In this document: positions 10,289 through 41,035 of the stretch, in pieces
How the letters are laid out: the number at the start of each line of letters is the position of its first letter
Numbering within the stretch: the first letter of the stretch is position 1
Assembly (NCBI GenBank): GCA_002290555.1
Contig: NEUK01000069.1
Location: forward strand, 1 to 42,058
Source: Spartobacteria bacterium AMD-G4
GTDB lineage: Bacteria; Verrucomicrobiota; Verrucomicrobiia; Chthoniobacterales; Terrimicrobiaceae
Length of the DNA: 42,058 bases
Direction: 5' to 3'
Notes under the pieces: generated by a model
What the model was told of the DNA's origin: nothing
Databases searched by the model: none
Seen by the model: the letters and a program-made list of their open reading frames with translations, nothing else
Translations under genes and position numbers: made by a program

Positions 10289-12232
10289 ATGGGAAAGATT
10301 TTAGGAATTGATTTAGGAACCACGAATTCTTGCATGTCCGTAATGGACGCAGGTGAACCCACCGTATTGGAGAACTCCGAGGGAGCACGCACCACACCAT
10401 CTGTCGTCGCCTTCACAAAGTCTGGCGAGCGCCTCGTTGGCCAGGCTGCCAAGCGCCAAGCCATTACGAATCCAGCGAACACGATCTTCTCCGTGAAGCG
10501 TTTCATGGGCCGCAAATATGACGAAGTCCGCAGCGAGGAGCACCGCGTTCCCTACAAACTTGTCAAGGCCGCCAACGGCGATGCCCACATTCAAGTAGAG
10601 ATCGACGGTAAGCCCAAGAGCTTTTCGCCACAGGAAATCTCCGCGATGATCCTTGCAAAGCTGAAGGCCGACGCCGAAGCCAAACTGGGTGAGAAAATCA
10701 CTGAGGCCGTCATTACCGTTCCTGCTTACTTCAACGACTCGCAGCGTAACGCTACGAAGGACGCGGGTAAGATCGCGGGTCTCGATGTGAAGCGCATCAT
10801 CAACGAGCCCACAGCGGCCTCACTGGCCTATGGACTGGACAAGATGAAGGACGAGAAAATCGCCGTTTATGACCTCGGCGGCGGCACATTCGACATTTCG
10901 GCTCTCGAAATCGGTGATGGCGTTTTTGAAGTCCGCGCGACCAATGGTGACACCCATCTTGGTGGTGATGACTGGGACAACCGCATCATGGATTGGATGA
11001 TTGCCGAGTTCAAAAATGACTCTGGCATTGACCTCTCCAAGCAGCCCGATGCTGTTCAGCGCATCAAGGAAGAGGGCGAGAAAGCCAAGATCGCTCTCTC
11101 TTCCACGCAGGAATACGAGATCAACTTGCCATTCATCACTGCGGACGCCAGTGGGCCAAAGCACATTCAGAAAAAGCTCACCCGCGCGAAGCTCGAGCAA
11201 CTCACCGATGACCTCTTCGAGCGCACACTCAAGCCTGTAAAGGACTGTCTCGCGGACACGAAGTGGAATAAGAATGATGTGAATGAACTGGTGCTCGTAG
11301 GTGGCATGACTCGTATGCCAAAGGTTATTGAGACAGCTCGGGAACTCATCGGCAAAGAGCCCCACAAGGGTGTAAATCCTGACGAAGTTGTGGCTATTGG
11401 CGCAGCTATTCAAGGCGGAGTGCTCAAAGGCGACGTGAAGGATGTGCTCCTGCTGGATGTGACTCCCCTCACCCTCGCGATCGAAACCGCTGGCGGCATC
11501 GCCACTCCCATGATCCCGCGCAATACGACGATCCCTACCAAGAAGTCCAATGTGTTTTCGACCTACGCCGACAGCCAGCCAGGCGTGGAAATCAAGGTCC
11601 TCCAAGGCGAGCGCCCGCTGAGCCGTGACAACAAGAACCTCGGCACTTTCCACTTGGATGGCATCCCGCCCGCCCCGCGCGGAGTTCCACAGATCGAAGT
11701 CACTTTCGACATCGATGCAAACGGCATACTCAATGTTTCTGCAAAAGACCTTGGCAGTGGCAAGGAGCAAAAAATCTCTATCACCGGTTCCAGCGGACTA
11801 TCGAAAGAAGAAGTCGAGAAAATGCAGAAGGAAGCCGAAGCCCATGCTGAAGATGACCGCAAGGCTAAAGAAACCATCGAGATTCGCAACAACGCCGACA
11901 ACCTCGCTTATCAGTGCGAGAAACAGCTCAAAGAACTTGGCGACAAAGTAGACGGCACTTCAAAGAAAAGTGTCGAAGATGCCATCGAGAAAGTTCGCGA
12001 AGCTCTCAAAGGCAGCGACTCCGACGCCATCAAATCCACCTACGACGATCTGCAAACGAAGTTTCAGGAAGTCACTACTGCAGCCTATAAAGCGGCCGCC
12101 GCATCAGCAGCATCAGCAGCATCAGCCGCTCCAAACCCCGACCACGAGGGCGAGCCGTCTGAACCCCAAGGCAAGAAAGACGACGTCGTGGACGCCGAAT
12201 TTGAAGTCCTCGACGAGGACAAGAAGAAGTAG
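10289..12232 (+). CDS. dnaK: Hsp70 chaperone DnaK
   Basis: A 647-residue Hsp70. The N-terminal ATPase domain starts [14 protein letters not shown], with [30 protein letters not shown] and [11 protein letters not shown], and later [11 protein letters not shown]. The substrate-binding domain includes [17 protein letters not shown] and [16 protein letters not shown] helical lid and an acidic tail ending [13 protein letters not shown] follow, with an Ala/Ser-rich linker encoded by a 9-bp repeat. It acts in the cytoplasm with DnaJ and GrpE, neither of which is in this window. groES and groEL follow on the same strand. The start has no Shine-Dalgarno sequence. Confidence 0.98.
12101..12127 (+). repeat. 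dnaK: Three 9-bp tandem repeats inside dnaK
   Basis: GCATCAGCA occurs twice and then as GCATCAGCC, coding Ala-Ser-Ala units in the flexible C-terminal part of DnaK. The reading frame is unaffected by unit gain or loss. Confidence 0.7.
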
Positions 12233-12679: not shown

Positions 12680-14320
<1,641 letters not shown>

Positions 14321-20100: not shown

Positions 20101-20652
20101 TTAGGGTTTCTTGGGAAATGCGTCGTTCAAGATGACGGTGCCATCGCTGGCAAGAAACTTCATCTCACCGAAGTAAGTGCCATTTGGCCCGTAGCACCAC
20201 ACGGACCAAATGGGAACAGCGAAACTGCCTTGCTGGTTCAATACAAAGCTCACCGTGGAGATCTGTTTTCTGTTCGCTCCAGCATAGTTTTGCGCAATAT
20301 CAAAAATTTCACGCGAGTCGACTTGGACTTTCGAGAGATTCAGCGGCTTGGCGGAGGAAAGTATCTCGCGCAAGCCCAGAGTTTGCTTGTCGGAGATGAT
20401 CTGACCGGAAGCTACTTCTATGCTGCGCATCCCATTGTCGTCTCGACCGGCTCGTGCGGAGACATACCAGGTGTCGGGATCGGGATTGGCACTGTCGGCG
20501 GAAAGTTTGAGAACTCCGCTGCGATACTTTTCAGGAAGGGCAGCCAAGCAAGCAAGCGCCCCCTTGGAGTCCATTGCCTGAAGGCAGCAGGACGAAAGAA
20601 GAAGTGCCAGTGAGAATGCTTTCAAAATCAATGCGCGTAGCAGACAGCTCAA
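20101..20652 (-). CDS. Exported protein of unknown function, possible lipoprotein
   Basis: A 183-residue protein with a hydrophobic N-terminus (LILKAFSLALLLSSCC). The LSSC stretch could be a lipobox, or signal peptidase I could cut after LQA. The mature part carries CYGPNGTYFGEMKFLASDGTVI and no domain that I recognise. The TTG start at 20652 overlaps the stop of the upstream cNMP-binding gene (TTGA), indicating coupling. tlyA begins 28 nt downstream. Confidence 0.65.
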   Translation of the reverse strand: MSCLLRALILKAFSLALLLSSCCLQAMDSKGALACLAALPEKYRSGVLKLSADSANPDPDTWYVSARAGRDDNGMRSIEVASGQIISDKQTLGLREILSSAKPLNLSKVQVDSREIFDIAQNYAGANRKQISTVSFVLNQQGSFAVPIWSVWCYGPNGTYFGEMKFLASDGTVILNDAFPKKP

Positions 20653-21128
20653 CCCATCAGGGATTCACGAAGCTTGGTCAGCTCGGTCTGCTCGGCGAGT
20701 TTCCGCGTCACCTCGCGAATGCGACGACTCAGCGTGGTGGCAAGTCCAATGAGCAGGAGAATACCCGCCGAAGGATAGTTGTTTATGAATTCTTCGAGTT
20801 CGTTGCGCGTTATCTCCCAGTATTGGCACTCGTCGACAGTGACCACAGAACAAACGGCCTCCAGTGGATCGAAGAGATCTACTTCACCGAGCCATTCGCC
20901 AGCCTCAACCTGCCCGAGGAGAACGTCTGTATCTTGGTCGACACGGCGGGCATGAAGAAGGCCACTAATGACCAGAAACAGCTTGCCGTGGGAGACGCCT
21001 TGCTCGATCAGGACGGTGCCTGGCTTTGCAGAGTTAAACCTGCCATAGCTTTCGAGGACTGTAACATCCTCGGGATTCAGATTGGCAACGATACCGATGA
21101 GTGGAAGTTGTTGTGTGAAAGTTGACAT
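20649..21128 (-). CDS. Cyclic-nucleotide-binding domain protein (CRP-like effector domain, no HTH)
   Basis: A 159-residue single-domain protein. The cNMP-binding beta-roll runs from about residue 10 to 130: PGTVLIEQGVSHGKLFLVISGLLHARR, then GQVEAGEWLGEVDLFDP, which is the phosphate-binding cassette region (canonical GExxL...RxA; here the Arg-Ala pair is replaced, so real cAMP binding is uncertain). A C-terminal helix with LAEQTELTKLRE could dimerise. No DNA-binding domain is present. It lies 30 nt after nrdA and overlaps the next exported-protein gene. Confidence 0.8.
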   Translation of the reverse strand: MSTFTQQLPLIGIVANLNPEDVTVLESYGRFNSAKPGTVLIEQGVSHGKLFLVISGLLHARRVDQDTDVLLGQVEAGEWLGEVDLFDPLEAVCSVVTVDECQYWEITRNELEEFINNYPSAGILLLIGLATTLSRRIREVTRKLAEQTELTKLRESLMG

Positions 21129-21158: not shown

Positions 21159-24100
21159 TCACTGACAAGCCTCACACTCTCCGCCGTTGAGCATGGCTTC
21201 GATCGAACAGGCCGTTTTTTCCTCCGCAGTAAATTCAGGCTTGGGGCCTGCGACGACTCCGCGGAGTTCCTTTTTCACATTTGTGGTCGGGCCTTCGATA
21301 CTGGAGGCACCGAGGGTGCGCAGGTAGTAGGTGGTTTTCAGCCCTGTGTGCCAAGCGCGGCGATACATGTGGCTCGCAATCTTCATATCGGGCTCGCCGA
21401 TGAAAAGGTTCACAGATTGGGACTGGTCGATCCACTTCTGGCGACGCGCGGCGGCCTCGATAATGAAGTCGAATGGTATCGAAAAAACCGTGCGGTGCTT
21501 TTCCCGTATCGCGAGCGGTATGTCCTCTATGCTCCCGAGTTCACCTTCGAAATACTTGATCTGTTCAAGCATGCGGGTATCCCATTTGCCGATCTTCTTA
21601 AGGTCACGAACCAACTCGGTGTTGAGCATGGTAAACTTGCCACCGAGATTTTCCTTGGCGTAGAGGTTCTTGTAGTTCGGCTCAATGCAAGGAGTGGTGC
21701 CCATGATATTCGAGATCGTGGCCGTGGGAGCGATAGCAAGGACATTAGAATTGCGCATGCCTTGCTTCTTGATTTTTTCGCGAACTGGTGACCAATCCAT
21801 ACGCCCGCCACGGGGCACATCGATTTTGACACCGCGCTCACGCTCAAGTAGGTCGATTGTATCTTGCGGAAGTAAATTCCGGTCCCACTTCGATCCCCGA
21901 AAGCTGCTGTAAGGTCCGCGCTCGGCAGCAAGATCGCTGGACGCCGCATAGGCGTGGTAAGCGATGGCTTCCATGAACTCATCATTGAAATCCACAGCCT
22001 CAGCACTCGCAAAACTCACATTGCGTTTGAAAAGGGCGTCTTGCAGCCCCATCACGCCAAGGCCGATGGGACGATGACGCACATTCGAACGCTTGGCGGC
22101 TTCCGTAGGGTAGAAATTGATGTCGATAACATTGTCGAGAGCGCGAATGGCCACATGGATCGTTTCGCGCAGCATTTCATGGTCGAGAGACCCGTCGGCT
22201 TTGATGTGCGCGTTGAGAACGATCGACCCAAGATTGCAAACCGCAGTCTCATCCTCACTGGTATTGAGAGTAATCTCGGTGCACAGGTTCGAAGAGTGGA
22301 TGACCCCGATGTGGTCTTGTGGACTACGAAGATTGCAGGGGTCTTTGAATGTGATCCATGGATGCCCTGTCTCGAGGAGCATCCTGAGCATCTGCTTCCA
22401 AAGATCGATGGCCGGCACTTCCTTGGCAGTAATTTTGCCTTGGCGAGCAAGATCCTCGTAGTGGAGATAGCGCTCCTCAAACTTGCGTCCGTAGGCATCG
22501 TGCAGGTCGGGAACTTCGTTGCTGCGGAAGAGCGTCCAGTTCTCACGGGACTCCATGCGCTTCATAAAAAGATCGGGAACCCAGTTGGCCGTATTGAGAT
22601 CATGCGTGCGGCGGCGGTCGTCGCCAGTGTTGCGGCGGAGTTGCAAGAAATCCTCCACATCATTGTGCCAGGTCTCAAGGTAGGCACAGCCAGAGCCGCG
22701 TCGCTTGCCACCTTGATTCACTGCCACAAGCTGGTCGTTGTGGAGCTTGAGAAAGGGGATGACGCCCTGACTCTCGCCGTTTGTGCCCTTGATGTAACTG
22801 CCAGTCCCCCGCACCGCTGTCCAAGAGCCACCGAGACCTCCAGCCCACTTCGAGAGGTAGGCATTTTCAGCGATGCCGCGCTGCATGATCGACTCGATCG
22901 AGTCGTCTACTTTGTAGAGGTAACAACTGGAAAGCTGGCTGTGGAGCGTGCCGGAGTTAAAGAGCGTAGGCGTGCTCGAACAAAAACGGCGGCTTTTGTA
23001 AAGGTTGTAGAGGCGCACAACCCAGTCTTCGCGCTTTGCAGGCTCTTCGATGAAGAGTCCCATAGCGACACGCATCCAGAAAAATTGCGGCGTCTCAAGG
23101 CGACGCGATGTTTTTTTCGTTTTATCGATGATCAGGTAGCGGTCGTAGAGCGTTTGGATTCCCAGAAAATCGAAATCCATATCAGCGGTTGGATCGATGG
23201 CTTCCGAGAGAACATCCAAATCATATCCGAGCAGCTTTGGCGTCAGACGCTCGATACCCACAGCATTGCGTAGATAGCTCTTAAAGGCCTTGCGATGGGC
23301 ATCGCGAAGCATCTCGATGCCGTCGCGCTGTATTTTCCAATCCAGAACTTCTTCGTAAATATAAGACAGCATGATGCGGGCCGCAAACTTGGCAAAATCG
23401 GCATCACGCTCGATGAGAGACCGAGAATTCAGAATGATCGTATTTTTCAGGATGTCTTCAGTCACCTCGGTGGCGAGGGATCGGCGCAACTCGCGCTCGA
23501 TCTGAAGGGCGTCGAGATTGAGATCGAGACCGATGGTCGCAAACTGAATCCGTTTTCGCAGCTCGGAGCCATCCCAGAGAACACTCTGGCCATCACGCTG
23601 GGTGACCATGATGAGGGATTCTTGGATGTCGCTGGCCTCGGCTTCGGCCTCGGTTTTAACAGCAACTTCGCGGTGACTGGCACGCTGGGCACGATAGAGA
23701 ATGTAGCTCTCGGCGACCTTGTAATAACCCTGCCGCATGATTTCTTCCTGCACGAGATCCTGCACGTCTTCAATATGAACAAACGCAGAGTCGCGGGTGC
23801 GCACGCTGTCGCTCACCCCACGAGCGATGGATGCGGCGGCTTCACCATTTTCCTTCATGGAAAGGAAGGCGCGGCGGCAAGCGGCCTCGATCTTGGATTC
23901 CATCCACGGAACGACAGATCCATTGCGGCGAATCAGGCGAACATTCAGAGGCTCTGCCTCCTGCGCCAGCGTGTATGCACCTCCGGAGCGGATCGAGCGT
24001 TTAAAAACGAGGCTTTTGGCGACATCGTGCGCATCATTTTCGATGAGGGCTTTTTCGATAAGGAGCGAGAGATCATGCTCAGAGAGGCGAAGCGAGCCGC

Positions 24101-24419
24101 CCTTCTGCGACTGCTCGGCCAGACTCAAAGCCACGGAGTGGGCGACATTCGCTACGAAGCCGCGATTTTGCTCATTGAAGATGTTTTTCTCTTCGCGTGA
24201 TAAAAGAAGATCCGTGAGCGCCTCACCGATCTCGTCAGCAACATCGGAGAGGTTAAACGATTGTTCATCGCCGTTGGTGCGAGTGACAGTGATTCCAGTG
24301 AGCGGATGGGCTGATGCGGCAAGTCCTTCGCGCCAGGAGAAGTCGGGCTTCTGGTCGCGTGGCATGGTGACGAGGCGCTTCAGAGCGATATCTTCGTCAA
24401 GTGAGAGATGTCGAGGCAT
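21159..24419 (-). CDS. nrdA: Class I ribonucleotide reductase alpha subunit with three ATP-cone-like repeats
   Basis: A 1086-residue catalytic subunit reducing ribonucleotides to deoxyribonucleotides. Three ATP-cone-like regulatory repeats precede the barrel: about residues 41-145 (degenerate), 157-247 (LNVRLIRRNGSVVPW...) and 268-360 (LIMVTQRDGQSVLW...). Active-site residues are visible: Cys499 in SSCYLY, Asn711/Cys713/Glu715 in NLCTE, and Cys728 in AVCNLGS. The C-terminal CEAC pair (1082/1085) is the thioredoxin/glutaredoxin-reducible pair. The extra cones make it longer than the roughly 760-residue E. coli form; three cones are also known from chlamydial NrdA. It lies 26 nt after nrdB. Confidence 0.97.
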   Translation of the reverse strand: MPRHLSLDEDIALKRLVTMPRDQKPDFSWREGLAASAHPLTGITVTRTNGDEQSFNLSDVADEIGEALTDLLLSREEKNIFNEQNRGFVANVAHSVALSLAEQSQKGGSLRLSEHDLSLLIEKALIENDAHDVAKSLVFKRSIRSGGAYTLAQEAEPLNVRLIRRNGSVVPWMESKIEAACRRAFLSMKENGEAAASIARGVSDSVRTRDSAFVHIEDVQDLVQEEIMRQGYYKVAESYILYRAQRASHREVAVKTEAEAEASDIQESLIMVTQRDGQSVLWDGSELRKRIQFATIGLDLNLDALQIERELRRSLATEVTEDILKNTIILNSRSLIERDADFAKFAARIMLSYIYEEVLDWKIQRDGIEMLRDAHRKAFKSYLRNAVGIERLTPKLLGYDLDVLSEAIDPTADMDFDFLGIQTLYDRYLIIDKTKKTSRRLETPQFFWMRVAMGLFIEEPAKREDWVVRLYNLYKSRRFCSSTPTLFNSGTLHSQLSSCYLYKVDDSIESIMQRGIAENAYLSKWAGGLGGSWTAVRGTGSYIKGTNGESQGVIPFLKLHNDQLVAVNQGGKRRGSGCAYLETWHNDVEDFLQLRRNTGDDRRRTHDLNTANWVPDLFMKRMESRENWTLFRSNEVPDLHDAYGRKFEERYLHYEDLARQGKITAKEVPAIDLWKQMLRMLLETGHPWITFKDPCNLRSPQDHIGVIHSSNLCTEITLNTSEDETAVCNLGSIVLNAHIKADGSLDHEMLRETIHVAIRALDNVIDINFYPTEAAKRSNVRHRPIGLGVMGLQDALFKRNVSFASAEAVDFNDEFMEAIAYHAYAASSDLAAERGPYSSFRGSKWDRNLLPQDTIDLLERERGVKIDVPRGGRMDWSPVREKIKKQGMRNSNVLAIAPTATISNIMGTTPCIEPNYKNLYAKENLGGKFTMLNTELVRDLKKIGKWDTRMLEQIKYFEGELGSIEDIPLAIREKHRTVFSIPFDFIIEAAARRQKWIDQSQSVNLFIGEPDMKIASHMYRRAWHTGLKTTYYLRTLGASSIEGPTTNVKKELRGVVAGPKPEFTAEEKTACSIEAMLNGGECEACQ

Positions 24420-24445: not shown

Positions 24446-25537
24446 TTAGAGATCGTCATCGCTCACGCCGGCGAGATCAATGCCTCGACGGTATTCGGTG
24501 ACGCGACCTTCAAAGAAATTGGTCTCTTTTTTGATTTCCATCATTTCCGAGAGCCATGGGAGCGGATTCTCAAGATTTCTGTGGAGGGGCTCGAGGCCCA
24601 CACCGACAAGACGCCGGTCTCCGATGTAATCGATGTAACGACCGAACTCATCGGCTGTGAGACCCACGGCAGCCACAGGCAGGCAATCACGGATAAATTC
24701 TTTTTCGAGCGCAATGGCCTCCGCCATCGTGGAGCGAAGCTCTTCGCGGAATTCCTCGGTCCAAATCTCAGGGTTCTCGTCGACGAGGTCTTGGAAGAGC
24801 TGGCGCAGAAGCTCGATGTGGTTCGACTCGTCTCGCAGCGTGTAGCTAAACATCTGTCCAATACCGGGAAATTTGTTCTGGCGGTAAAGGGCAAGAACCA
24901 TGCCGAAGAGCCCATAAAACTGCGTCCCCTCCATGCACTGGCCGAAGAGAAAGATATTTTTGGCGAAAGCAAATTTGTTCTCAAGGCTCGTCAGATCCAT
25001 ATCGCGACGGAGCGCACGGCTGTTGCTAACGACAAAGTCCGTCTTGTTTTTGATCGTCTTCACATCCTCAAACATGGCCTCGCACTCATGCGGATTTATC
25101 CCGAGCGAACTGATCATATAGACCAGCGAGTCGGCGTGGATATTTTCCTCTTGTGCATGGCGCCCCAGCACGAGCTTCAGCTCCGGCGCGGTAACCGCCT
25201 CGCGAATGACATGGAGGATGTTGTCGCCCACGATACCTTCGGCGGCTGAAAAATATCCGATTCCCATCTTGATGATCCAACGGTCGACATCCGAAATCGC
25301 TCCGCTGGTGTCGCGCCAATGCTCACAATCTTTTTGCATCGGCACATCTTCAGGCTCCCAGTGGTTCGCCTTCATTTTTTTGTAGAGGTCGTAGGCCCAA
25401 GTGTATTTTAAGGGCAGGATGTTGAAAAACATCGTTTGGCGTCCGTTGATGACGCGTTTTGCAGCAAATGCGGCTTCGGCTTTGTCGCTATCCAGTATGA
25501 ATTGGCGGTCTCCGAGTGTGATGGTGGTTGTGGTCAT
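24446..25537 (-). CDS. nrdB: Class I ribonucleotide reductase beta subunit, class Ic-like (no radical Tyr)
   Basis: A 363-residue ferritin-like radical subunit. All six metal ligands are present: Glu100 (SAAEG), Glu131 and His134 (EENIH), Glu203 (CMEG), Glu237 and His240 (RDESNH). The first ligand is Glu, as in Chlamydia trachomatis NrdB, not Asp as in E. coli. Four residues after His134, where the radical Tyr (E. coli Tyr122) or chlamydial Phe127 would be, is Leu138, coded CTG at 25124-25126. This suggests a tyrosyl-free class Ic enzyme, probably with an Mn/Fe cofactor. The C-terminal tail has conserved Tyr349. Two NrdR-like boxes lie upstream. Confidence 0.96.
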   Translation of the reverse strand: MTTTTITLGDRQFILDSDKAEAAFAAKRVINGRQTMFFNILPLKYTWAYDLYKKMKANHWEPEDVPMQKDCEHWRDTSGAISDVDRWIIKMGIGYFSAAEGIVGDNILHVIREAVTAPELKLVLGRHAQEENIHADSLVYMISSLGINPHECEAMFEDVKTIKNKTDFVVSNSRALRRDMDLTSLENKFAFAKNIFLFGQCMEGTQFYGLFGMVLALYRQNKFPGIGQMFSYTLRDESNHIELLRQLFQDLVDENPEIWTEEFREELRSTMAEAIALEKEFIRDCLPVAAVGLTADEFGRYIDYIGDRRLVGVGLEPLHRNLENPLPWLSEMMEIKKETNFFEGRVTEYRRGIDLAGVSDDDL

Positions 25538-25653: not shown

Positions 25654-25700
25654 AATCTCTATATTGTGGAAAATTTTTAGACTACCACAACAGGTAGTGG
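25654..25700. promoter_or_regulatory. Tandem NrdR-box-like operators upstream of nrdBA
   Basis: Compared with the NrdR consensus ACACWATATATWGTGT, the 16-mer at 25654-25669 matches 12 positions and the 16-mer at 25685-25700 (CCACAACAGGTAGTGG) matches 11. They begin exactly 31 bp apart, the spacing of paired NrdR boxes in other bacteria, and lie just upstream of the putative -35. NrdR is the nucleotide-sensing repressor of RNR genes; its gene is not in this window. Confidence 0.55.
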
Positions 25701-39345: not shown

Positions 39346-40134
39346 CTACCCCCTCGGAAGGGCGCCCTTTTTTTCGATGAGCGCATAGGCACTGTGGTTG
39401 TGGATGGACTCAAAATTCTCCACTTCCACGCGATACCGGATGATGTTTTCATCCGCCTCACAGCGAACAGCGACATTTCTCACGAGATCTTCGACGAAAA
39501 CCGGGTTGGCGTAAGCCTGCTCGGTGACATGTTTTTCATCCGGACGCTTGAGCAGGCTGTAAAGCTCCGCGCTGGCTGACTCCTCGGCGAGGCGCACCAT
39601 GTCTTCGATCCACATCGGCCGTTTGCAGCAGACGGACAGAGTCACATGCCCCCGCTGGTTGTGGGCTCCAGCGGCACTGATCGCTTTCGAGCAAGGACAG
39701 AGCGTGGTCACTGGAACGACGGTCGTGACGACAAAGTCCATTTCGCCATTTTCAAGAGTGGCATTGAAGCGAACGGTGTAATCCATCAACCCCACGGCAC
39801 CACTCACAGGCGCTTTTTTTCCAAGAAAAAACGGGAATTCAATCTCGAGGTGGGCGCAGCGGCTTTCAAGGCGCCGGCACATTTCCTGCAAGATATCGCG
39901 GATATTTTCCACATGGATCACAGGCCCGTGTGCGACCAGAACCTCGATGAAGCGGCTCATGTGCGTCCCCTTAAAATGATGCGGCAGGTCGACTGTGAGC
40001 TGAATGCTGGCAACCGTGCTTTGCACAGAGTGCTCCTTGTCGCGAACCTGTAGCGGGTAGCGCAGCGACTTCACTCCCACTCGATCGATCGGCAGCTGTC
40101 GGTCGTCGCGCTCGTTTTGGGTATCCTTCAACAT
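39346..40134 (-). CDS. folE2: GTP cyclohydrolase I type 2 (FolE2)
   Basis: A 262-residue enzyme converting GTP to dihydroneopterin triphosphate for folate and/or queuosine synthesis. The family features are visible: IDRVGVKSLRYPLQV, GTHMSRFIEVL, TLCPCSKAIS with the catalytic Cys, SAAGAHNQRGHVTLSV, and FVEDLVRNVA near the end. ATG at 40134 opens the conserved N-terminus; the longer frame upstream overlaps the divergent SDR gene. FolE2 enzymes often replace zinc-dependent FolE under zinc shortage; no Zur box is seen. Confidence 0.95.
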   Translation of the reverse strand: MLKDTQNERDDRQLPIDRVGVKSLRYPLQVRDKEHSVQSTVASIQLTVDLPHHFKGTHMSRFIEVLVAHGPVIHVENIRDILQEMCRRLESRCAHLEIEFPFFLGKKAPVSGAVGLMDYTVRFNATLENGEMDFVVTTVVPVTTLCPCSKAISAAGAHNQRGHVTLSVCCKRPMWIEDMVRLAEESASAELYSLLKRPDEKHVTEQAYANPVFVEDLVRNVAVRCEADENIIRYRVEVENFESIHNHSAYALIEKKGALPRG

Positions 40135-40222
40135 GTGAAAGGTATTTTTACCGCTGTATCCACGACTCCAAGTCAAAAAAAATCGTGCGAGCTTGGTCCA
40201 GTTTGTTTTTAGTGGCTCCCAT

Positions 40223-41035
40223 ATGGCAACAAGCATTTTTGATCTCTCCGAAGAAGTGGCGATAGTCATAGGAGCCACTGGCATCCTCGGGGGAAGCATG
40301 GCTGATGCCCTCGCTTCAGCCGGAGCGACCGTGGTGGTTGCGGGACGCAACACAGAGCGTGGGGTTCAACGCTCCGCTCAAATCAAAAAAAACGGCGGGC
40401 GGGCGGCATTCATCGAGTGTGATGCCACCGAGCGTGAGAGCTTGGAGGAGCTTCTCAAATCGACCACGGAGAGGTTCGGCGTCCCTTCAGTCCTCGTCAA
40501 TGCCGCTGGAGGAAATGACCCGCGCGTCACTGTGACCCCTGAAAATCCATTTTCCCGGATTACCGCAGAAGATTGGACCTCGAGCTTTGATCTCAACCTT
40601 GTGGGCGGCGCCTTGCTGCCATGCCAAGTCATCGGCCAAGCCATGGTGGATGCCGGCCGTGGCAGTATCATCAATGTGGCCAGCGCATCAGCGCACATTC
40701 CCCTGTCGCGCGTGGTGGCCTACTCGGCAGCCAAGGCAGCTGTTCTGAACCTCACCAATTTCCTCGCCCGCGAATGGGCAACGGCAGGCGTGCGGGTGAA
40801 TTCCATAACCCCCGGTTTCTTTCCTGCAGAACAAAATCTCCGCCTCCTCTTCAACCCCGACGGTTCGACCACTCCCCGCGCTGCAGCGATTCTCGGGCAT
40901 ACACCCATGGCCCGCTTCGGGGAGGCAGAAGAACTTTCGGGCGCGGTTATTTTTCTGGCCAGCCCAAATGCCAGTTCGTTCATCACAGGAACAGATATCC
41001 GCATCGACGGAGGATTCCTCTCACAAACAATCTGA
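40223..41035 (+). CDS. Short-chain dehydrogenase/reductase
   Basis: A 270-residue Rossmann enzyme. The cofactor motif is GATGILGG (17-24), with AGRN at 40-43 and NAAGGNDPR at 93-101. The active site is Ser154/156 with Tyr167 and Lys171 (YSAAK). The AGGNDP segment and length resemble SDRs annotated as D-mannonate or gluconate oxidoreductases, but the substrate cannot be assigned. ATG at 40223 gives a normal N-terminus. It is divergent from folE2 and followed by a small imperfect hairpin with TTTTT. Confidence 0.88.
   Translation: MATSIFDLSEEVAIVIGATGILGGSMADALASAGATVVVAGRNTERGVQRSAQIKKNGGRAAFIECDATERESLEELLKSTTERFGVPSVLVNAAGGNDPRVTVTPENPFSRITAEDWTSSFDLNLVGGALLPCQVIGQAMVDAGRGSIINVASASAHIPLSRVVAYSAAKAAVLNLTNFLAREWATAGVRVNSITPGFFPAEQNLRLLFNPDGSTTPRAAAILGHTPMARFGEAEELSGAVIFLASPNASSFITGTDIRIDGGFLSQTI

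Follow-up and report, generated by a model that had tools for sequence, protein, structure and literature searches.

The window, that is the whole stretch of DNA analysed here, comprises positions 1 to 42,058 of contig NEUK01000069.1 of Spartobacteria bacterium AMD-G4, and carries on its minus strand an nrdB-nrdA gene pair for a class I ribonucleotide reductase (RNR). The nrdB product was recognized by Pfam (PF00268, 226 bits) and exceeded two NCBIfam cut-offs (PRK07209, 316 versus 309 bits; PRK09614.1-5, 244 versus 237 bits). The gene and the residues considered below, including those common to the clade of close relatives defined further on, are as follows:

24446..25537, minus strand: nrdB, class I RNR beta subunit of 363 aa with Leu at the radical-tyrosine position
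25238..25240, minus strand: Glu100, metal ligand 1, Asp in Tyr-type rows (alignment)
25136..25147, minus strand: E131-N-I-H134, ligands 2 and 3 (sequence)
25124..25126, minus strand: Leu138, codon CTG, at the position of Escherichia coli Tyr122 and Chlamydia trachomatis Phe127 (alignment)
25118..25120, minus strand: Tyr140, aligned with C. trachomatis Tyr129; Tyr in 166 of 166 clade rows
24929..24931, minus strand: Glu203, ligand 4, followed by the clade-fixed T205-Q206 (sequence, alignment)
24818..24832, minus strand: D236-E237-S-N-H240, ligands 5 and 6 plus the second-sphere Asp (sequence, alignment)

All six metal ligands are present (E100, E131, H134, E203, E237 and H240), together with the second-sphere residues Glu130 and Asp236, the relay residues W60, Y232 and D236, and the C-terminal Y349. 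The ligands align with E89, E120, H123, E193, E227 and H230 of C. trachomatis, numbered as in Table 3 of PMC6370689 (papers are cited here for the excerpts that bear on the point). Leu138 lies four residues C-terminal to ligand H134, at the position where class Ic proteins lack a Tyr. The pairwise alignment with C. trachomatis R2 is gapless around this site (EENIHADSLVY versus EEAVHTHTFLY) and places Leu138 on Phe127. In a 233-row alignment the radical-site column holds Leu in 170 rows, Tyr in 38, Phe in 18 and a gap in 7, so that the Leu138 column, shared with the Tyr and Phe rows, is correctly placed. The original prediction of Leu instead of Tyr at the radical site, next to an intact, class Ic-like ligand set with Glu first, is therefore borne out; the check it proposed, an alignment in search of a conserved Tyr at the radical site, returned Leu138 in that column of the window. 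Thus, nrdB is a real, conserved class I RNR beta subunit without the radical Tyr.

The partner gene, the ATP-cone matches within its product and two sites upstream of nrdB are listed here:

21159..24419, minus strand: nrdA, class I RNR alpha subunit of 1086 aa, starting 26 bases past nrdB
23988..24290, minus strand: NrdA ATP-cone match 1, weak, 19.8 bits (Pfam)
23679..23933, minus strand: NrdA ATP-cone match 2, strong, 70.6 bits (Pfam)
23355..23612, minus strand: NrdA ATP-cone match 3, weak, 23.6 bits (Pfam)
25685..25700, minus strand: NrdR-box-like site 1, ahead of nrdB, agreeing with an NrdR consensus at 11 of 16 bases
25654..25669, minus strand: NrdR-box-like site 2, ahead of nrdB, agreeing with an NrdR consensus at 12 of 16 bases

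NrdA matches NCBIfam PRK07207 at 1214 bits (cut-off 965), with an equally plain Pfam call, and has two adjacent tyrosines (YY, 1031-1032) as well as a CEAC motif at the C terminus, both as expected for a class I alpha subunit. The predicted three-cone architecture was recovered as three ATP-cone matches, two of them weak and only the middle one above the Pfam cut-off; with these, NrdA shows the trait of multiple cones, up to three, of the NrdAz group, to which PMC9669993 assigns many alphas that are putatively class Ic and many with multiple cones. The remaining ATP-cone matches in the genome fall on two neighboring open frames (186-187 aa, contig C34), among which nrdR could be found, and, weakly, on contig C53. 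Gene order is conserved: nrdA directly follows nrdB at 77 of the 80 named loci compared (the best 80 of 584); two of the other three are too short to judge, and one (L045) has room and no nrdA there.

A plain scan for the NrdR consensus, allowing up to three mismatches, gave no match upstream of nrdB. The two listed sites, of 16 bases each with starts 31 apart, form a pair ending 116 bases upstream of the gene. None of 50 single-base shuffles gave an equally good pair, and in the paired search at most 1 of 50 did so for 56 of 74 upstream stretches, window included. Since the shuffles preserve single-base composition only, the pair is a hint of NrdR boxes. Elsewhere in the window, a cyclic-nucleotide-binding domain protein is encoded immediately past nrdA (20649-21128, minus strand), an Hsp70 gene (10289-12232) adjoins a gene for a Cpn60 family protein with a modest score (12680-14320, plus strand, 263 bits) in a stretch with strong AT skew (0.33), and a folE2-type GTP cyclohydrolase is encoded at 39346-40353 on the minus strand (GCHY-1, 317 bits). 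The latter is a metal-flexible enzyme, and its gene is a possible sign of metal-sparing habits.

A survey of 387 Verrucomicrobiota genomes gave any match to NrdB in 125 and none in 262, with a protein 68-100% identical to that of the window in 84 (row count). The Leu clade was defined by more than 60% identity to the window and scored over 166 rows, consisting of 85 proteins from the 84 genomes, 80 named loci (the best 80 of 584) and the window, which occurs twice (as WIN and L002); these are 162 distinct sequences, falling into 107 clusters at 95%, 64 at 90% and 17 at 80% identity. Leu138 and Glu100 are found in 166 of 166 rows, and Leu138 is therefore not a chance occurrence. W60 is likewise present in all 166, Y232 and D236 in 164 of 164 and Y349 in 163 of 163 rows with letters at these positions, as are all four in every Phe-type row (18 in total) having letters there. 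Across the 233 aligned rows, positions 100 and 138 pair as E/L (169), D/Y (38), E/F (18) and Q/L (1), with a gap in 7, so that rows with Glu as ligand 1 carry Leu or Phe at the radical site (187 rows) and those with Asp carry Tyr (38 rows); the lone Q/L row is a tandem copy without its ligands, and the Tyr/Glu pair is absent from the 233 rows.

Spartobacteria, Chthoniobacterales, Akkermansiaceae, Verrucomicrobiaceae and Opitutae are among the titles of the best 80 of 584 loci, and 8 of the 84 clade genomes belong outside the class of the window (row count); the clade thus covers several families of this class and extends beyond it. Loci of the cultured genera Haloferula and Luteolibacter (L058, L096, L110) are also Leu-type. 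The clade does not occur throughout the class, of which many genomes gave no match. In a scan of genome contigs every title among the best 80 of 584 confirmed relatives was Verrucomicrobiota. Seven of these named loci, 93-98% identical, carry the titles Spartobacteria, Terrimicrobiaceae, Chthoniobacter or Verrucomicrobia, in line with the verrucomicrobial origin proposed for the window. Matches among plasmid (405) and phage (1830) records were all below 60% identity, and none of the 12 plasmid and phage proteins retrieved was of the Leu type.

Some members depart from the common pattern. An outlying member of the clade (L122 in genome G047, 50% identity) has the Leu/Glu pair with His at 140, and an nrdA of 939 aa directly downstream. 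One genome (G215; L022 and L184) holds two Leu-type nrdB copies on separate contigs, 75-76% identical to that of the window. In L039 an in-frame stop stands where ligand Glu237 should be, and in L124 (G330) nrdB is split over two frames; assembly error or decay would account for these two.

A search for a second nrdB in the genome of the window, suggested as a check, found none in the 82% complete draft, and neither a second RNR barrel nor any other RNR turned up there. To place this in context, 25 of the 84 clade genomes, hand-picked for completeness and spread, were searched for the RNR barrel and NRDD families, a census that sees the families covered by the models used. One RNR barrel and no NRDD were found in 18 of the 25, and G125 would be the 19th single-barrel genome if its two barrel fragments, which lie on two contigs, belong to a single gene. 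NrdD was present in five (G313, G128, G163, G228, G172) and a second barrel in four (G128, G228, G172, G186). Fourteen of the 25 are single-contig genomes, of which 13 have exactly one PF02867 barrel, no NRDD and one PF00268 beta each, all 13 betas being Leu-type; the fourteenth, G186, with its second barrel, counts against the explanation favored below. Because the Leu-type protein is the sole class I beta beside the sole RNR barrel in 13 of 14 single-contig genomes, this beta must function without a radical Tyr. Judged from sequence, the Leu-type beta is very probably functional, and Leu at the radical site is compatible with the supply of all deoxyribonucleotides.

Two of the 13 are 0.9-Mb genomes, from the same taxonomic order as the window (G036 and G057, with loci L014 and L018), and have the Leu-type pair as the only RNR found; their NrdA open frames are 860 and 865 aa long, versus 1098 in the window, perhaps with fewer ATP cones. 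Neither the main text of a V. spinosum essential-genome paper nor that of a Xiphinematobacter genome paper mentions nrd genes or ribonucleotide reductase.

The excerpts of PMC6370689 on classification assign NrdBz proteins to class Ia if Tyr, and to class Ic if Phe, Leu or Val, occupies the radical site, and Table 4 gives the metal row of NrdBzc as E E H E E H with second-sphere E and D. The window has exactly this signature (E100, E131, H134, E203, E237 and H240, plus E130 and D236), and the classification expressly admits Leu. PMC3824934, crediting Hogbom 2010, also records Leu, Ile and Val at the radical site of R2c proteins. Since the NrdBzc signature fits and admits Leu, the protein is of a kind already known (PMC6370689, PMC3824934), and by published sequence rules the Leu-type beta is class Ic-like. 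Furthermore, the relay residues and C-terminal Tyr required of class Ic are present, and a review of Mn/Fe proteins gives Glu as the first ligand of R2c and R2lox (PMC4118035). NrdBzc is a bioinformatic class, for which the excerpts of PMC6370689 describe no cofactor of a Leu member. According to PMC8463856, classes Ia and Ib pair a site Tyr with Asp as ligand 1, while class Ic has Phe/Glu and class Id has Tyr/Glu; the window, with Leu/Glu, differs from the Phe/Glu pair of characterized class Ic. The NrdI and radical Tyr of class Ib (NrdF) were not found, position 138 being Leu and PF07972 giving 0 matches in 14 genomes, that is the 13 single-contig genomes and the 82% complete draft of the window. 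No biochemistry of a Leu-type beta or study of the verrucomicrobial clade was found in the literature covered, most subscription journals lying outside it.

The AlphaFold model of NrdB has a mean pLDDT of 79, with low values at 29-42 and 336-363. The closest solved protein, both by sequence (257 bits) and by fold (top 13 Foldseek rows), is C. trachomatis NrdB, which is 38% identical to the window and shares with it the six Glu-first ligands, the lack of Tyr at ligand His+4, and the second-sphere Glu and Asp. W51, Y222 and Y338 of the C. trachomatis protein have counterparts in the window, and the gene order, nrdB-nrdA in the window, is nrdA-nrdB in Chlamydia. In contrast to the C. trachomatis protein, the window has Leu for Phe, belongs to a separate clade, and carries N132, T205, Q206, T233 and N239 for A, I, F, I and I. 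The C. trachomatis alpha, like NrdA of the window, has three ATP cones (PMC9669993), and a class Ic RNR has been inferred for the chlamydial ancestor (PMC9816063).

A Chlamydia-like, Phe-type NrdB gave near-full-length matches in 13 of the 387 Verrucomicrobiota genomes, and all 13 have Phe. A first tree of 77 rows, including 12 of these 13 proteins, placed the Leu clade (99/96) next to long-branched, Tyr-type phage-like rows (94/86). This grouping was judged a long-branch effect, and the tree was therefore rebuilt without 18 rows (tandem copies, a split-gene row, long-branched Tyr-type and phage rows, and one near-copy). In the reduced 59-row tree the Leu clade forms one side of a branch (100/100), and a Phe clade with C. 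trachomatis and other Verrucomicrobiota was supported in both trees (99/98 with 77 rows, 99/97 with 59). Constraining the Leu rows to join the C. trachomatis-like Phe rows cost 8.95 log units and was weakly rejected (AU p 0.032), joining all Tyr-less rows cost 4.86 log units and was not rejected (p 0.29), and a single clade of all Phe rows was rejected (p 0.008), so that the Phe types alone do not form one clade; these p values are not strict, since the choice of groups was made in part with the first tree in view. The term chlamydia-like, used of this system in the original prediction, is thus overstated, and the failure of the Leu clade to group with the C. trachomatis-like Phe proteins counts against the explanation favored below. 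Seven plasmid Tyr-type NrdBs (from Burkholderia, Acaryochloris, Massilia, A. caldus, Flagellatimonas, Teredinibacter and Pseudomonas silesiensis), 34-39% identical to the window, sit among the Phe-type groups in the trees; unlike the window, all seven combine a radical-site Tyr with Asp as first ligand.

Taken together, we consider it likely that NrdB is a Tyr-less class I beta with a metal-held oxidant, probably Mn(IV)/Fe(III). This proposal is supported by C. trachomatis NrdB as the closest protein in sequence and fold, the identical NrdBzc signature, the pairing of Glu with Leu or Phe and of Asp with Tyr, the conserved relay, and the status of sole RNR in the 13 single-contig genomes. The nrdB product would be the radical-generating beta and the product of the adjacent nrdA its alpha. 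Most likely the dinuclear metal cluster itself would store the one-electron oxidant, probably as Mn(IV)/Fe(III) assembled with O2 in the manner of Chlamydia class Ic. From there the oxidant would pass via W60/D236 and Y349 to the active-site cysteine of NrdA, and Y232 may carry the electron used in activation; these relay and activation roles are those of the Chlamydia equivalents. A metal-centered oxidant is what we infer for the Leu-type beta; by analogy with Chlamydia, Mn/Fe would be our best guess for its cofactor, the choice of Mn plus Fe instead of two Mn being guessed.

Caution on Mn/Fe is called for mainly because of 24 positions, Leu138 included, that lie at most nine residues from a ligand and at each of which 97% or more of the Leu clade has one residue that none of the 18 Phe-type rows has. 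Besides the five residues named above, these clade-fixed differences from C. trachomatis include Y95 (F), G101 (S), D105 (N), H127 (Q), A135 (T) and Q200 (I). Because near-ligand residues differ, metal preference could differ from that of C. trachomatis. Of 14 genomes searched for Nramp, 10 gave a match, but a strong, full-length one came from just 4, including the two 0.9-Mb genomes G036 and G057; the draft genome of the window gave none. With this mixed pattern, Mn import was left out of the support.

A more novel reading, which seems unlikely, would make the verrucomicrobial Leu clade a separate metal-oxidant lineage that lost Tyr independently of Chlamydia, with polar metal surroundings of its own (N132, T205, Q206, T233 and N239) and a cofactor or activation unlike the Mn/Fe of Chlamydia. 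Also unlikely is a Tyr-less dimanganese enzyme, in which Mn2(IV,III) would be made with superoxide as in class Id (NrdBi), from a different lineage. Glu as ligand 1 is common to class Id (PMC6370689), the near-ligand residues are more polar than in Chlamydia, and NrdI, which class Id does not need (PMC8463856), is missing from 14 of 14 genomes. However, class Id retains Tyr at the site (PMC8463856), where the window has Leu, and has Cys or Ser before ligand 2, where the window has Glu; the Lys found at ligand 1 + 4 in the studied enzymes (E67/K71 in the Fj protein, PMC8463856) is Gly104 here, and the L. blandensis class Id protein (5olk) is distant in sequence (31 bits).

The radical could instead reside on another aromatic near the cluster, such as Y95 or Y140, which are fixed in the clade, and the cluster could then be diiron or of another kind, a reading that we consider improbable. 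Both residues are Tyr in 166 of 166 clade rows, and position 95 is Phe in 18 of 18 Phe-type rows. Against this, Glu as ligand 1 is associated in print with classes Ic and Id, in which the metal is the oxidant (PMC8463856). Moreover, Tyr at 95 is also found in 15 of the 38 Tyr-type rows. Position 140 is Tyr in the 18 Phe-type rows as well, among them the metal-using Chlamydia protein, and is His in the outlying Leu row L122.

R2-like ligand-binding oxidases (R2lox) are not known to be encoded with an NrdA. That the protein is no RNR subunit at all, being an R2lox or a non-functional or accessory beta-prime, is highly improbable: R2lox also does without a tyrosyl radical (PMC3824934) and has Glu as ligand 1 (PMC4118035), and a tandem copy without ligands exists within the clade, but Y349 is present where R2lox has no C-terminal Tyr (PMC3824934), nrdA adjoins in the window and in nearly all of the named loci counted above, the top-scoring R2lox model of NCBIfam reaches 48.7 where its cut-off is 194, and the protein is the sole beta in 13 of 13 closed genomes.

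A wide environmental lineage seems to build its DNA precursors using an RNR whose radical site lacks Tyr and every other aromatic residue, and many of its members show no other RNR. In the literature consulted, class Ic chemistry rests mostly on a single protein, that of an obligate pathogen. The Leu clade, which includes free-living members and has an aliphatic site residue and altered surroundings, is a probe of the choice between Mn/Fe, Mn/Mn and Fe/Fe, and bears on whether Tyr went once or several times; poorly studied, it is well suited to testing. Should the cofactor simply be Mn/Fe, the protein would be a useful comparative enzyme and no surprise.

Finally, a second, diverged nrdB adjoins the Leu-type gene at three loci (L119 in G116, L120 in G207 and L121 in G378). 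The copies in L119 and L120 keep the ligands and have Asn for Y232 and His for Y140. The copy in L121 lacks Glu100, His134, Glu237, His240 and the C-terminal Tyr, keeps an acidic tail, and is like a bacterial beta-prime, for which yeast Rnr4 is the comparison case.
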